From: a virus
Length of the DNA stretch: 31,413 nt
Reading direction: 5' to 3' (one strand)
Virus record (IMG/VR): IMGVR_UViG_3300036985_003138
Location: 1 to 31,413 of that record
How positions within the stretch are numbered: the stretch's first letter is position 1; every line of letters begins with the position of its first letter. A program made the translations under genes and the position numbers. This document shows, piece after piece, positions 2,802 to 17,542 of the stretch. Below the pieces are notes generated by a model that worked only from the letters and a program-made list of their open reading frames with translations, was not told the DNA's origin and ran no database searches.

Positions 2802-3149
2802 TCACGATATGGTGACTGTACCAATAGCTGTTTTTGCTACTAGATTGTTTGGTGTTATGCCAGAATCAATACCTCTTGCTCCGCCTACAGGGTACCAACC
2901 CCACTGAATATCTCTACTGGACACTACAGCGTTATCAGGTCTTGGTTCTCTTAGAGCTTGTGGGTCAATAACAGGGTACATTCCTACGCGTAACTGCGGG
3001 TGGTCAGGCTCCCAACAACTTTTACATACTTTGATGTTAGTTTGGTTGAGTTTGATGGTGAGCTTTTTTAACTCACGATATTTAGTACGCTGACCGCATC
3101 TATCGCAGTAGGCATTAGAATTCTTACCTGAAGCGAACTTAGTAGCCAT
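2802..3149 (-). CDS. Phage structural-operon protein with Cys4 zinc-ribbon-like motif
   Basis: 115 aa. The N-terminus (MATKFASGKNSNAYCDRCG) carries two CxxC knuckles, C15/C18 and C42/C45, followed by W46 and DHPQLRVG. This is a recurring small protein of podovirus-like neck regions (CDRCG, then CxxC, then DHPQ). Zinc binding is inferred from the cysteines. The C-terminal half is probably beta-structured. The start lies 11 bp inside the end of the upstream gene, so the two are translationally linked. Confidence 0.65.
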   Translation of the reverse strand: MATKFASGKNSNAYCDRCGQRTKYRELKKLTIKLNQTNIKVCKSCWEPDHPQLRVGMYPVIDPQALREPRPDNAVVSSRDIQWGWYPVGGARGIDSGITPNNLVAKTAIGTVTIS

Positions 3150-3852: not shown

Positions 3853-4733
3853 TAGATATATTTCCCGCGTGTTCTACCAGTGCGCTCTGCACCATGACCA
3901 CGAACACTTCCGCCCGTTTTCATGCACTTTGCTTTACCACCTTTCTTGAAGGCTTCTGCGCCTACTGGTAGTTCATCACCTGAGTATGCTTGCGCTTGCT
4001 CTGCTTTCCATGAATCATACGCTGCTTGGCGTGAGGCTCTGCTTGCTGCTGATTCTGTAGGTCTACTTACTGCTTTTTTAGCTGGTGCTGGTGCTGCTTT
4101 TTTGGTCGCGGGTTTTGTTGTTGGTTTTGATACAGGCTTACTTTCTGTAGCTACACTTTCAGACTTATTAGCTTTAAACGATGTTTCTCTTGGTACACCA
4201 TCATCACCCATAGTCATCGTATTGCTTGGTCTTTGCGCTGTTGAACCTGAGTATGGTTTATACCCTGAACCGCCAGTAGCAGGTCTGTTTGCTGGTCGGC
4301 TTTGCCCTGGTAATGTCATTGACGCGTTACGTCCACCTAACCTGTCGTCTGCGTTACTCATAGCTTCGCTAATTGTTGGAGGTTTGCCCATAGAGTACCC
4401 TTCATCTGACATACCACCACTAGCCATCTTTTTAACTTTTCCGCCTTTTTTCATCTTAGCTTTCTCGCTTTCTTCACCCATCGCGTACTGCTTAGGGGTT
4501 AGCTTTCCTGACTTGATAGCTTTGGCTTCGTTGAGTTCTTCTTTATAGGTTTCTTTACCTTTGAACAATTTACTCGGTTTTTTCATCTCGCCACCTGTTT
4601 TGAATTTTTTGCCTTTGTCCGCGTTGACGAACTCTCGCCCCACGCTTGTGGAAACACCCACACGTTTAGCTGCTTTTGGGTCATGTGCTACCATCTCCAT
4701 AAAACGGTGCTGTTTAGCCGATTTACTAGGCAT
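3852..4733 (-). CDS. Basic low-complexity phage protein (KKGGK repeats)
   Basis: 293 aa, strongly basic. The N-terminus (MPSKSAKQHRFMEMVAHDP, then AAKRVGVSTSVGREFVNADK) is a conserved phage motif. The middle (about 120-220) is a Ser/Thr/Pro/Lys/Ala-rich linker. The KKGGK/KTGG elements recur, and the end is VRGHGAERTGRTRGKYI, another recurrent phage C-terminus. Composition suggests a flexible nucleic-acid-binding or ejected virion protein, which is inference. It overlaps its neighbours by one base on both sides. Confidence 0.6.
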   Translation of the reverse strand: MPSKSAKQHRFMEMVAHDPKAAKRVGVSTSVGREFVNADKGKKFKTGGEMKKPSKLFKGKETYKEELNEAKAIKSGKLTPKQYAMGEESEKAKMKKGGKVKKMASGGMSDEGYSMGKPPTISEAMSNADDRLGGRNASMTLPGQSRPANRPATGGSGYKPYSGSTAQRPSNTMTMGDDGVPRETSFKANKSESVATESKPVSKPTTKPATKKAAPAPAKKAVSRPTESAASRASRQAAYDSWKAEQAQAYSGDELPVGAEAFKKGGKAKCMKTGGSVRGHGAERTGRTRGKYI

Positions 4734-6698: not shown

Positions 6699-7379
6699 CT
6701 ACATGGTTTTGGCAATGAGTACCATGTGATTTATATCTCTAATCAATTTCATTTTCAACATGGTCATTAACTGATTTTCTATGGTATCTCTACGTTTCAG
6801 CTCTTGGTATGTTGCTGTATTCCACGACCCCCCAGTAGGGCTTACATTTTCTTTAACCGCTATAGCCACACGGATGTAGTAGTGTTTGGAGTTCGCAGCG
6901 TCTTTTACTAACTCCTGCTCAATCATCATATTTAGAGCTTTAAACGAATCCCCACTGTCATCACGCCACTCTAGCAGTTTACCTTCAATCAGTATGTCAA
7001 ACATCTTAACTTTGAAATCTGCGTCCATTCTGGAAGCCGCATCTAACAGCAGGTAGATATGCGCCCACGTCCCACCACCGTGCCGCCCCCTTTTTGTTCT
7101 AATTAACTCTGACTCAATCGTTGCTACCCTACCATTTTCTAATTGTGCCGATTCGGCAGTTTTAGATTCCAGCCCGTACTTTCTCTCTAGGGCTTGAACC
7201 AGCTCAAGTGTTTCTGGTGAGCGTAGGTAATGCGACATTAGTAACGGGTTTAGTCCTTTAGCTTCCCTGATTGAATTCCCGATTGCCCAAAGTTCTGTTA
7301 GGCTGCCCATTTTGGTTTTGTGTTCAATCTCCAAAGACTTGCCATCAAAGTCTAAGGTCATTACTTGGTTTGTTTTCAT
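6699..7379 (-). CDS. KilA-N domain protein, inserted moron-like gene
   Basis: 226 aa. Residues 103-136 (GTWAHIYLLLDAASRMDADF, then KVKMFDILIEGKLL) match the core of the KilA-N DNA-binding domain found in phage antirepressors and regulators. The N-terminal half (residues 1-80) resembles the region that precedes KilA-N in such proteins. The C-terminus (145-226) is helical and may be a partner-binding tail. Unlike its neighbours it is free-standing: a promoter lies upstream (7412-7439), a strong terminator before that (7441-7470) and a terminator behind (6587-6627). It splits the capsid gene from the other virion genes. A regulatory or host-takeover role is inferred; the target is unknown. Confidence 0.75.
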   Translation of the reverse strand: MKTNQVMTLDFDGKSLEIEHKTKMGSLTELWAIGNSIREAKGLNPLLMSHYLRSPETLELVQALERKYGLESKTAESAQLENGRVATIESELIRTKRGRHGGGTWAHIYLLLDAASRMDADFKVKMFDILIEGKLLEWRDDSGDSFKALNMMIEQELVKDAANSKHYYIRVAIAVKENVSPTGGSWNTATYQELKRRDTIENQLMTMLKMKLIRDINHMVLIAKTM

Positions 7380-14078: not shown

Positions 14079-15583
14079 TAGTAGTATTCTCGTCGTCTAT
14101 ATCGGGTTTCATGTTCTTCTTCAGGTTCATCTAAGCGGGTTCTAATGTGTCCACCTTGCCTAAACATATGCAATGCTAAACTCGTGCAGTCCACGGTATC
14201 ATCGTTAGAACCCGCAGGGAACGCGGCTACTTCGTCCATAAGCTCTTGCGCCCAGCGCGTGTCAGGACACCACACAAACCCTGAAGCAAAAATGTCGGCA
14301 ACTGCGGTAAGCCTTGATATTTTATCATTACCTTTTCCTGGGGTGAACTCCTGTGTTGGGATACCCATACGTCGTAGTTCTTGAATCAGCGATGCACCTG
14401 AAGCGCGTTTTTCCACAATCATTGAATCTGGTTGCCATTCATTGTACGCGTCATACACCCATTGCTTGAGTTCAGGAAACTCTACCCGATTTTTTACAAC
14501 GTCAAGCAGCATTATATTTGGCTGAACTGAACCTGTTTCTTCGTCCTCATGGTAGAACACACCCCACACGGTCATCGCGCTGTAGTCAGCTCGGTTATGT
14601 TTTTCATAGGCGGTATCCCAAGACATGAGAATAAACTCTGTTGGTGGTGGGTTCTTTTTCTCCCATATACGCCACCATTCGCGCTTGACAATCGCGCCCT
14701 CCTCAGAGGTGGGGTTCTGCATATACTGAGCATTCCAAAACCGCGTAGCTAGTTCTGCTTTAGTGCGTTCTAATTCCTCGATTTTCCAATACTCAGACCA
14801 CAATGGTTTTCCTGATGGCATAATGGCAGGAAACTCAATAATCTCCCATTGGTCGCCGTTAGGATTCTTAATCATGTTCCCGACAAGCCTACCCGTCAAA
14901 TCCAAAACCGACCATCGCGTCATCACCAGCACTATTGCTCCACCAGGTTGGAGCCTTTGCCGCGCACCTGTCATGTACAAATCGTACACCGTGTTATGAG
15001 GTTCAGGGTTATTAGACTTACCTATCTGTTCGCTTATGGGGTCGTCGATGAGGCATAAATGACTACCTTTACCTGCGGCGTTTGTCCCAAAGCCTAGTGC
15101 GTGGTATTCACCACCTTTATTTGTGTTCCACCTAGCCGCTGCGGTAGAGTCTTTACTGAGTTTAGTTTCTGGAAATATCTCGTGGTACTTGTCGCTATCG
15201 ACTAAGTTTCTTACTTTACGTCCGAAGGTTTCTGCAAGTTCAGATGAGTGAGAAAACTGCATTATCTTTTTGTCTGGGTATAACCCTAGAAACCATGCTG
15301 GGAGTAGGTACGAAGCCATCTCAGATTTACCATGACGGGGCGGCATATTGATAATGAGGCGCGTAAGTTCACCTTTAGCTATGCGTTCAAAGGCATTGGA
15401 CATAATTTCAAAGTGTCTGCCGTGTATAAAGCCTTCCCACATACAATCTACAAACTTCAAAAACTTTTGCTGGGCTTCTTCTTGTGTTTGACGCTTTTCT
15501 AAGGCACTGAGAATGGCAAGGGCTTTAGCTCTGTCTATTTCGCTCATTCTGAGCAATATGTCGTTGGTTACTCTCGCAGTCAT
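14078..15583 (-). CDS. terL: Terminase large subunit (TerL)
   Basis: 501 aa, normal length. The ATPase domain has Walker A PPRHGKSE at residues 81-88 and Walker B LCLIDDP at about 177-182. The C-terminal nuclease domain starts at LMSWDTAYEKHNRADYSAMT (about 325-345), carrying the first RNase H-like Asp. Later acidic residues lie in MIVEKRASG and FPAGSNDDTVDCTSLAL. It pumps DNA into the prohead with ATP and cuts the concatemer. The gene overlaps TerS by 4 bp and portal by 1 bp. Packaging type (cos or pac) cannot be read from this. Confidence 0.92.
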   Translation of the reverse strand: MTARVTNDILLRMSEIDRAKALAILSALEKRQTQEEAQQKFLKFVDCMWEGFIHGRHFEIMSNAFERIAKGELTRLIINMPPRHGKSEMASYLLPAWFLGLYPDKKIMQFSHSSELAETFGRKVRNLVDSDKYHEIFPETKLSKDSTAAARWNTNKGGEYHALGFGTNAAGKGSHLCLIDDPISEQIGKSNNPEPHNTVYDLYMTGARQRLQPGGAIVLVMTRWSVLDLTGRLVGNMIKNPNGDQWEIIEFPAIMPSGKPLWSEYWKIEELERTKAELATRFWNAQYMQNPTSEEGAIVKREWWRIWEKKNPPPTEFILMSWDTAYEKHNRADYSAMTVWGVFYHEDEETGSVQPNIMLLDVVKNRVEFPELKQWVYDAYNEWQPDSMIVEKRASGASLIQELRRMGIPTQEFTPGKGNDKISRLTAVADIFASGFVWCPDTRWAQELMDEVAAFPAGSNDDTVDCTSLALHMFRQGGHIRTRLDEPEEEHETRYRRREYY

Positions 15584-16068
15584 GTAACTTCACCTTCAAT
15601 CACATTACTCCCTACATACTTCCCAAGCAGAGCCTTTAAATCACTCTCTAGTTCATCACTGGATTTATTGTTGATGTCTACGCTTATCTTTGTTTCAAAC
15701 AACCCAACCTCAGCGATTTTACCTATCTTCTCAATGGCAGATAAGGCGATGTTCTCTTTTTCACTCTCAGCTAAGTCAAGCAACCGTGAAATGGCATAGG
15801 TACGCAGCCGCATTGCATCGTCGTGCAGGGTAAAGTCATATTTAGCCAGTAATCGGCGTACAGCTTTAGCTGCGCCTAGCGTGGTGGGCTTATCAGGGGC
15901 GTTTGGCGTTTGGAATACGATTGCACGGGCTTCGCGCTCGTCATCTTTAGACACAGGGACATCTTCACTAAATTCAGCGAAGGCTTCGTGCTGCATAGCT
16001 GTTTCCCATAAGGCTTCTGGGTTGCTATCTACGTTCCAAACAAAAGGTATTGTCGTTTCGTGTTCCAT
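15580..16068 (-). CDS. Probable terminase small subunit (TerS)
   Basis: 162 aa. N-terminal 70 residues are acidic and variable. The second half is helical (RLRTYAISRLLDLAESEKEN, then IALSAIEKIGKIAEVGLFET) and ends with a DELESDLKALLGKYV-type segment. This resembles small terminase subunits of podovirus-like phages, where a LELIGKIxxVGLF-like motif is common. It is the first late gene, overlaps TerL by 4 bp, and starts just below the control region. No clear helix-turn-helix is visible, so DNA recognition is unproven. Confidence 0.65.
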   Translation of the reverse strand: MEHETTIPFVWNVDSNPEALWETAMQHEAFAEFSEDVPVSKDDEREARAIVFQTPNAPDKPTTLGAAKAVRRLLAKYDFTLHDDAMRLRTYAISRLLDLAESEKENIALSAIEKIGKIAEVGLFETKISVDINNKSSDELESDLKALLGKYVGSNVIEGEVT

Positions 16069-16099: not shown

Positions 16100-16129
16100 A
16101 GGGTACTACATATTAATGCGTGGTGTCAA
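16100..16129 (-). promoter_or_regulatory. Candidate late promoter
   Basis: On the minus strand a perfect TTGACA (16129-16124) is followed after 18 bp by TACCCT (16105-16100), a poor -10 box. A TGTAGT motif, the same hexamer as in the array beyond it, lies at 16110-16105 directly at the -10 edge. It is about 32 bp from the TerS start. The weak -10 suggests activation or a regulated switch. Confidence 0.4.
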
Positions 16130-16218: not shown

Positions 16219-16430
16219 GTGAATGCAAATGTGCAGAAACGTCAAAATGTGGTCGTTGAGTGGCTAAAACTGAGCGTAGCACCGCCGAGCCGCCAAATAA
16301 TTTTTTCGGGGGGTGGGGGTCGGTTCCGCGTGGCTACCCCATGCCCGTTTCGTTGGTGCCGATTCTGCGCCTGTAGCGGTGCCTTTACGCCTCGAAAATG
16401 ATTTTTTAATGGTGTTGGTGCGGGTTGTGA

Positions 16431-16486
16431 AGCAGTGAAGCAGTGGAGCAGTGGAGCAGTGGAGCAGTGGAGCAGTGGAGCAGTGG
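16431..16486. repeat. 8-bp tandem repeat, seven units (AGCAGTGR)
   Basis: Seven adjacent octamers: one AGCAGTGA followed by six AGCAGTGG. It is non-coding in any plausible gene. It directly abuts the first TGTAGT motif (16487). Copy-number change by slippage is likely. Confidence 0.9.
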
Positions 16487-17076
16487 ACTACATTAGCTAG
16501 ATAATAAACTACAGGTAAAAACTTGCTTAGATTTACGCTCACTAGCTAATAATGACGATTTGTAGTCAATTGTAGTTTTATGTAGTTTAATTTTTATTAT
16601 GCAAATCAAGCACTTACGGCATAAAAACGCTAATAATAATAATAAACTACAATAAATATATATAGCCCCCTGTGAGAGCTTTTTTTTTCAATTTTTACCC
16701 TTAAAAGGGCAGTTCTTTTTTTTGCATAGTTCATAAAATTGTAGTTTTGTAGTCGATAGCCCCGCAGCCCGCATTATTTTTTGTAAGTCATTGAAATATA
16801 AGGACAATAATAAACTACATAAAACTACACAAACCAAAAAATATCAACAGAATCAATAGATTGCAGTGTAGTCTAATAAATAACAACGCAAAGCAGAAAA
16901 AAGCAAGTATCAACAATCACGCGTAAATTTTAGCCACACGCTATAGACTACACAAAAATAAAAATTGTATTAAAATCAATAGCTTATATGTGTAGTCGAT
17001 GAAAAAAGCAACACAAAGCAAATAAAAGCAGGAAAAAGCAACAAAAAACTAGACAAAGCAAAATATATAGACTACA
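16487..17076. repeat. TGTAGT iteron-like array (14 copies)
   Basis: The hexamer TGTAGT (or ACTACA) starts at 16487, 16508, 16561, 16571, 16581, 16646, 16740, 16748, 16814, 16824, 16867, 16947, 16991 and 17071. Both orientations occur. The bases after the hexamer are mostly TTTAT/TTAAT or CTAT/CGAT, giving a consensus near TGTAGTYTAT. Three copies are exactly 10 bp apart (16561-16586), and another pair is 10 bp apart. In random DNA of this length fewer than one copy is expected. Confidence 0.85.
17001..17060. repeat. AAAGCA boxes in exact 10-bp phase
   Basis: AAAGCA ends each 10-bp block at 17005-17010, 17015-17020, 17025-17030, 17035-17040 and 17055-17060; the 17041-17050 block is degenerate. 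Each box starts with an A tract, so the tracts are phased with the helix and should bend DNA. Two further AAAGCA boxes lie at 16890 and 16900, again 10 bp apart. Confidence 0.85.
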
Positions 17077-17132
17077 CTTCGCACAACTTCAAAACGCAGC
17101 ACATACCGAAGCCACCACGCCACACATCGGCG

Positions 17133-17162
17133 TTGACATAAAAACAACATTTGTTGTGTAGC
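17133..17162 (+). promoter_or_regulatory. Candidate early promoter with internal palindrome
   Basis: Perfect TTGACA at 17133-17138, then after 18 bp TGTAGC at 17157-17162 as a weak -10. The spacer holds an inverted repeat ACAACA (17144-17149) / TGTTGT (17152-17157), suited to a repressor. The first early gene starts 17 bp after the -10, with AAGGGG as its ribosome-binding site. Confidence 0.45.
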
Positions 17163-17179
17163 AGCAACAAGGGGAAAAC

Positions 17180-17542
17180 ATGAAAAAAGCAGACGGATTG
17201 ACGCTAATTTTAGCAGCAGGATTACAAGCACACGCGGAAAAGCTCTTTTTATGCGGTTACACACACGCATTAATAATTGGCAATAAGCTATCAAAAGGCA
17301 AAAAACGCGCGTCAATATATAGAAAAGCCGCTTTTATTGCAGCTCATAGAGCAAGCAAAACACATACCGCGCCGCGCATTACAGCAACGTTAACAAGTGA
17401 AGGCTACTACAACATTTTAAGCGGATTAGATTTAATCAACGCGCACAGCGTACACAAACACACAGGCAAACAGTTGAGCCAATGGGTAATTGACAGCATA
17501 CAAAGCCGCACAGGTTACACAATCCACATAATAGGAGCATAA
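17180..17542 (+). CDS. First early gene, basic protein of unknown function
   Basis: 120 aa, not recognised. The N-terminus MKKADGLTLILAAGLQAHAE is helical; a basic stretch (about 33-60: NKLSKGKKRASIYRKAAFIA) follows, then a Thr/Ser-rich linker and a C-terminal helix (GKQLSQWVIDSIQSRTGYTI). The high charge and promoter-proximal position fit an early regulator or host-takeover protein, possibly binding the repeat array upstream, but this is inference only. It has an AAGGGG ribosome-binding site 7-12 nt before the ATG. The next gene follows after 3 bp. Confidence 0.6.
   Translation: MKKADGLTLILAAGLQAHAEKLFLCGYTHALIIGNKLSKGKKRASIYRKAAFIAAHRASKTHTAPRITATLTSEGYYNILSGLDLINAHSVHKHTGKQLSQWVIDSIQSRTGYTIHIIGA

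Follow-up and report, generated by a model that had tools for sequence, protein, structure and literature searches.

A mixed-orientation TGTAGT array between the late and early modules of a pelagiphage-related podovirus as a candidate replication origin

The non-coding DNA between the divergent late and early modules of the phage studied here carries 14 exact copies of the hexamer TGTAGT, and this array is probably the replication origin of the phage, with an initiator binding its TGTAGTY repeats. The original prediction had allowed for an initiator or an early/late regulator as the binding protein; the comparisons presented here favor the initiator, because TGTAGT arrays of unrelated phages and prophages lie beside initiator helicase genes and each array-bearing relative has a single array. 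To our knowledge, origins have not been mapped in the lytic phages related to the abundant pelagiphage HTVC023P group, and the array offers a precise candidate location together with a predicted binder.

Genome Context

The window, meaning the whole stretch of DNA analyzed (31,413 bp), represents part of a podovirus-like phage genome with an expected total of ~62 kb. Pelagibacter phages HTVC027P and HTVC023P, phage DSL-LC04 and phage 023Pt_psg01 have terminases ~50% identical to that of the window. The nearest contig is IMGVR_UViG_3300048672_000233 (G001/L009, the sister phage; 62.6 kb), which keeps the gene order and presents 96% identity for the major capsid protein, 83% for the terminase and 78% for the DNA polymerase; none of the relatives compared exceeds ~85% to the window phage. 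Late genes run leftward from the terminase small subunit-like gene (terS) and early genes rightward from the gene at 17180, leaving ~1.1 kb between them, inside which the array is established (Table 1). The window also encodes PolA and the start of a SNF2 gene. The late module contains a KilA-N domain protein (6699-7379, minus strand), whose sister-phage counterpart is 92% identical. In the sister phage, the terminase large subunit (L009:4708-8262) is 1184 aa long, compared with 501 aa in the window phage, and looks split by two intein-like insertions, one of which bears a LAGLIDADG-like motif.

Table 1. Features of the late/early junction and its flanks (window coordinates).
Feature	Position	Strand	Remarks
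terS, terminase small subunit-like gene	15580..16068	-	First late gene; 74% identical in sister phage
Fifteenth TGTAGT	16105..16110	-	In presumed late promoter; TTGACA at 16124-16129, minus strand; promoter called by eye
Tandem 8-mer GTGGAGCA	16427..16487		7.6 copies, directly left of array
TGTAGT array	16487..17076	both	14 exact copies (7 on each strand); divergent modules on its two sides, late to the left and early to the right; plus-strand sites 16561, 16571, 16581, 16740, 16748, 16867, 16991; minus-strand sites 16487, 16508, 16646, 16814, 16824, 16947, 17071
Two leftmost copies	16487..16513	-	16487 and 16508, one orientation, without partner set to the left
Unit 1	16561..16651		Direct TGTAGT 16561, 16571, 16581 (+), 10 bp apart; AT-rich gap; facing 16646 (-)
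Unit 2	16740..16829		TGTAGT 16740, 16748 (+) facing 16814, 16824 (-); shares 168/169-bp duplication with unit 1
Unit 3	16867..16952		TGTAGTC 16867 (+) facing GACTACA 16947 (-)
Unit 4	16991..17076		TGTAGTC 16991 (+) facing GACTACA 17071 (-); 124-bp duplicate of unit 3
Operator-like dyad ACAACA-TT-TGTTGT	17144..17157		In presumed early promoter; read by eye
Orphan gene, 120 aa	17180..17542	+	First early gene; ~30% identical in sister phage, lowest among matched proteins

Structure of the TGTAGT Array

All 14 predicted copies were found in place, as were the three direct repeats spaced by exactly 10 bp in unit 1 and a second 10-bp pair, which proved to be 16814/16824. The window holds 40 TGTAGT, 14 of them within 16487-17076 and 26 across the other 30.8 kb; there is no second cluster, the copies outside the array standing at background density. 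For 16487-17179 (693 bp), 2000 dinucleotide-preserving shuffles averaged 0.55 copies, with at most 5 in any of them, and the best count of any hexamer never exceeded 11. An unbiased scan, overlapping words included, showed that the array is the sole mixed-orientation hexamer cluster of at least eight copies in the window.

The core is TGTAGTY, as the base after the hexamer is always a pyrimidine (7 C and 7 T in the 14 copies). The extended consensus TGTAGTYTAT put forward previously holds for its Y in all copies, while the full word occurs in only 5/14, and past the core only a weak preference for TAT was seen. One-mismatch versions are not enriched (7 vs. 9.7 expected), so that the array has no halo of decayed copies. 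The repeats form sets on both strands with copies 8-10 bp apart and AT-rich gaps; the site starts of facing sets are 65-80 bp apart, and the gaps between them are 63-78% AT. Strict alternation of orientation among single copies was considered and dropped (9 runs vs. 8 expected for 7 + 7). Two old tandem duplications, with units of 168/169 bp and 123-125 bp, partly built the array, and therefore some of the 14 copies are not independent of each other. Identity between the duplicated units has fallen to ~75-80%, while their hexamers are still exact. Within the window, the two 100-bp segments of lowest stability both fall in the array, with centers at 16614 (unit 1; the lowest) and 16833 (unit 2; the second). 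Unit 4 carries A-tracts phased at 10 bp (17003-17060); curvature analysis gave mixed results, and an Rfam search of the array region returned a sub-threshold match only.

If the array is an origin, its initiator would bind the TGTAGTY repeats in both orientations and melt the AT-rich DNA between facing sets, so that the replicative helicase could be loaded in both directions. The likeliest initiator would be a DUF927-type primase-helicase, whose gene is expected just beyond the right end of the window and which would act in trans through its C-terminal domain, as the precedent of SaPI Rep and the SCCmec helicase Cch2 suggests. That the array acts as an origin, that this helicase binds it and that melting takes place in these gaps are points that we infer by analogy with such systems.

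Arrays at the Same Junction in Related Phages

Relatives that keep the gene order and lack the array had been named in the original prediction as evidence against it. The closest relative, G001, has indeed no TGTAGT cluster, but its early/late junction bears CGTTGT copies on both strands, among them a perfect inverted pair of 20 bp (AAAACGTTGTTTGTATTGTT). With another array at the matching place, it is the position that is conserved and not the word. The G004 group (terminase ~56%) has 13 copies of GGAACAT in 473 bp between the divergent modules, and over four contigs of this group core columns vary in 0/91 cases vs. 24/391 for spacer columns (p = 0.006). Scanning for mixed-orientation clusters of at least eight copies recovered CGTTGT in G001, GGAACA with its overlapping words in G004 and none elsewhere in these genomes; shuffled genomes never gave such a cluster of more than 7. 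Thus one mixed array per genome, at the early/late junction, is found in both G001 and G004, and the same unbiased scan detected no comparable array in G002 and G005. The minima of GC skew did not coincide precisely with the arrays, and gene direction confounds them. Concerning the rest of G001, a second array at 58.5 kb (GTAGTT, 10 copies) was rejected as a coding tandem repeat, and the repeat-rich end at 61.7-62.6 kb, which looks coding too, was discarded likewise.

G001 encodes a DUF927 primase-helicase, PolA and a SNF2 helicase, and homologues of all three are present in G004. The DUF927 proteins of the two phages are 27% identical, compared with 43-49% for PolA and SNF2, which places them among the least conserved of the shared replication proteins, and identity is ~12-23% over most of the last 200 alignment columns, the part with which SaPI Rep and Cch2 contact their iterons. 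In G001, ~16 kb separate the DUF927 gene from the array.

G003/L098 has related late genes (its TerS is 62% identical to that of the window) and a different replication module. Upstream of its terS there is a tandem TTATGCACA (AGTTATGCACAG in L100), matching the DnaA box TTATNCACA; the oriC of Escherichia coli contains AGTTATCCACAG. Such DnaA-box arrays, tandem or inverted, lie upstream of terS in lytic-type phages (L098:4360-4510, L100:889-1526, L097:1-480), and between phages with 99% identical TerS the core of the box is kept while the spacing differs. These arrays could titrate or recruit host DnaA. The mixed array of G003 consists of 10 GAGTAA copies at 48820-49210 (L111:8820-9210), directly downstream of the primase-helicase gene and 3 kb from the array upstream of terS. 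It surrounds the least stable DNA of the G003 genome and is a candidate for a SaPI/PICI-like origin. G003 is therefore one case in which the mixed array goes with the replication gene, and it indicates that an array preceding terS is not necessarily the origin.

TGTAGT Arrays in Unrelated Phages and Bacterial Genomes

Viral contigs were scanned for three TGTAGT at 10-bp steps, which yielded 94 stretches, 80 of which were analyzed. With at least two opposite-strand copies nearby as the definition of a mixed array, 25/80 TGTAGT loci were mixed, compared with 1/36 for the reversed hexamer TGATGT, the one control used (Fisher p = 5e-4). Genes for VapE, DUF927 or a related primase-helicase were present within 1 kb of 12/25 mixed and 2/55 non-mixed viral loci (p = 5e-6), a test that is partly circular since the helicase models were seeded from some of those loci. 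Bacterial genomes, mostly of Bacteroidota, were not used in choosing the helicase genes and form an independent set; there the association was 5/14 for mixed loci and 0/66 for the others (p = 8e-5). Several of the scanned loci are interrelated, and hence these counts are not fully independent.

The helicases beside TGTAGT arrays are VapE-like (PF05272), DnaG/DUF927-like or AAA primase-helicases. Many of the VapE helicases are alike in their C-terminal region, and the DnaG/DUF927 group has another one. Loci such as L136, L153, L183, L133, L141, L186, L196, L199, L296 and L309, among others, share with the window the hexamer core, the 8-10 bp spacing, the mixed orientation and the AT-richness. 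The arrays beside VapE/DUF927-type helicases differ from it in their flanking letters, have no close genes in common with the window phage and are mostly adjacent to the helicase gene. A search of the viral contigs for the exact 21-bp junction of the array units gave no match.

TGTAGT as a universal VapE iteron was rejected, as VapE genes sampled without bias in the phylum of Dysgonomonas lie near arrays built of different hexamers. Specifically, four loci with VapE-type genes in bacterial genomes (L383, L386, L389 and L398) bear mixed arrays of TGATAG, GGGTAA, TGATGA and AAAGTA. TGTAGT would thus be one of several iteron words, and the word seems to differ from lineage to lineage. We tentatively put forward a wider proposal, which we regard as possible while holding it more doubtful than not: TGTAGT may serve as an iteron core across phyla and with dissimilar helicases (VapE-like, DUF927-like and DnaG/AAA-type), and within this podovirus family, with its origin at the early/late junction, near relatives may have exchanged the whole iteron word (TGTAGT, CGTTGT, GGAACA) along with the C-terminal domain of their initiator. 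If true, phages would fall into replication-specificity groups comparable to plasmid incompatibility groups. The occurrence of TGTAGT beside several types of initiator helicase, and of other words in close relatives, makes co-change of iteron and initiator directly testable, and a single mixed-orientation hexamer cluster per genome can be a simple marker for candidate origins in uncultured phages.

Comparison with Known Systems

SaPI Rep helicases use their C-terminal domain to recognize iterons, SaPIbov1 Rep has a relative in the DUF927 helicase Cch, and the C-terminal domain of Cch2 binds AAGTG iterons (PMC7581432), while PICI origins consist of two iteron sets flanking an AT-rich region (PMC6092414). 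Like these origins, the window array has multiple short iterons, far above chance, around AT-rich DNA, and the DUF927 initiator helicase family is represented in the relatives of the phage (G001, with a homologue in G004). Unlike them, where the origin is directly downstream of rep, the array is established between terS and the 120-aa orphan with its helicase expected far off, and it has about nine alternating sets instead of two. By analogy, it would most likely work like an origin of the SaPI/PICI/SCC type; we do not file it as a member of that class, because it does not adjoin an initiator gene, which is a defining feature.

In the putative SCCmec Cch2 origin, too, short iterons are contacted by a self-loading helicase via its C-terminal domain (PMC7581432), but there are only three direct iterons, they adjoin cch2, and the helicase is of another family. 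An iteron array bound by an element-encoded initiator is likewise known from PLE, a satellite of Vibrio cholerae (PMC7145576); it differs in its RepA_N initiator without a helicase and in its semi-palindromic iterons, and no RepA_N domain turned up in the proteins searched in this study. Bacterial oriC regions resemble the array in having repeats of a short word in AT-rich DNA, and the relatives L097, L098 and L100 do have AGTTATGCACAG arrays. A DnaA-dependent oriC was nevertheless rejected for the window, as TGTAGT is not TTWTNCACA and fewer than three boxes occur in any 600 bp of the window loci. Phage stoperator or multi-operator repressor systems have asymmetric operators spread over many intergenic regions and a repressor; the window has one cluster only, with the other copies at background, and no repressor was found among the proteins searched, so this assignment was discarded as well.

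Alternative Explanations

The main rival of the origin reading is an early/late switch, in which a phage regulator such as the 17180 product would sit on the repeats, repressing the early genes and activating the late ones. The array is placed precisely between the divergent modules, with a TGTAGT inside the late promoter candidate and a single-base variant inside the early candidate, so that a regulatory role fits its position equally well, and this counts against the origin reading. The 17180 protein is moreover the least conserved of the proteins matched between window and sister phage (~30% vs. 36-96%), as would be expected of a co-evolving binder. Fourteen sites in 590 bp nonetheless far exceed usual operators, and TGTAGT arrays elsewhere go with helicase genes. 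The 17180 protein, suggested earlier as the binder, could not be established in that role: it belongs to no recognizable DNA-binding family, it had no family match at all, the sister phage holds its only detectable homologue, and its low-confidence AlphaFold model (pLDDT 65) had no match in the PDB. Searches with it and DUF7222 as baits likewise retrieved no close relative besides the sister phage. Overall we consider the switch rather unlikely. Iteron plasmid Rep proteins autoregulate, and an element of dual function, in which the initiator of the origin uses extra sites to repress or time the neighboring promoters as well, would account for the sites in both presumed promoters as well as for the array. 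These promoters are consensus guesses, however, and an automated scan found no excess over shuffles, which leaves such a combination improbable.

That the repeats beside terS mark a packaging start, binding TerS with A-tract bends in between as in cosB or the pac site of SPP1, appears very improbable. The array is indeed directly upstream of terS and contains the phased A-tracts of unit 4, yet the sister phage and G003 have similar TerS proteins (74% and 62% identity, respectively) and the arrays of these phages share no word with that of the window; the conserved GC-rich block beside terS described below is the better packaging candidate. Neutral tandem duplication of an AT-rich spacer, of which the repeats would be functionless relics, is credited with just as little probability. 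Although the two duplications explain several of the copies, the hexamers remained exact while the rest of the units drifted, one-mismatch relics are no commoner than chance, and TGTAGT arrays occur in unrelated phages too. Against the origin reading itself stand, besides its position, the absence of an initiator gene next to the array in the window phage, the ~16 kb between array and DUF927 gene in G001 and the situation in other relatives, where the terS-upstream array of G003 consists of DnaA boxes with the origin-like array elsewhere and G002 and G005 have no comparable array.

Flanking Elements

The further sites noted earlier at the two promoter candidates are both present, namely the fifteenth TGTAGT on the late side (Table 1) and a TGTAGC at 17157-17162 on the early side. 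A sigma-70 promoter scan found promoter-like sites to be no commoner than in shuffles. A dyad like that of the presumed early promoter (ACAACA-CT-TGTTGT) is located upstream of the homologous early gene in the sister phage (L009 ~3051-3064).

Beside terS, a GC-rich non-coding block (GACCCCCACCCCC, ~16248-16323, minus strand) is followed by a partly conserved stretch. The block precedes terS in the sister phage as well as in most of the more distant phages compared, and it is a candidate packaging or late-promoter element. At the place matching the GTGGAGCA repeats of the window, relative L100 has a different tandem 8-mer, GATGCTGT. Finally, another relative (G002; L095:3670-3765 and 4570-4590) presents operator-like CGTAGTG-N-CACTACG dyads ahead of several early genes.
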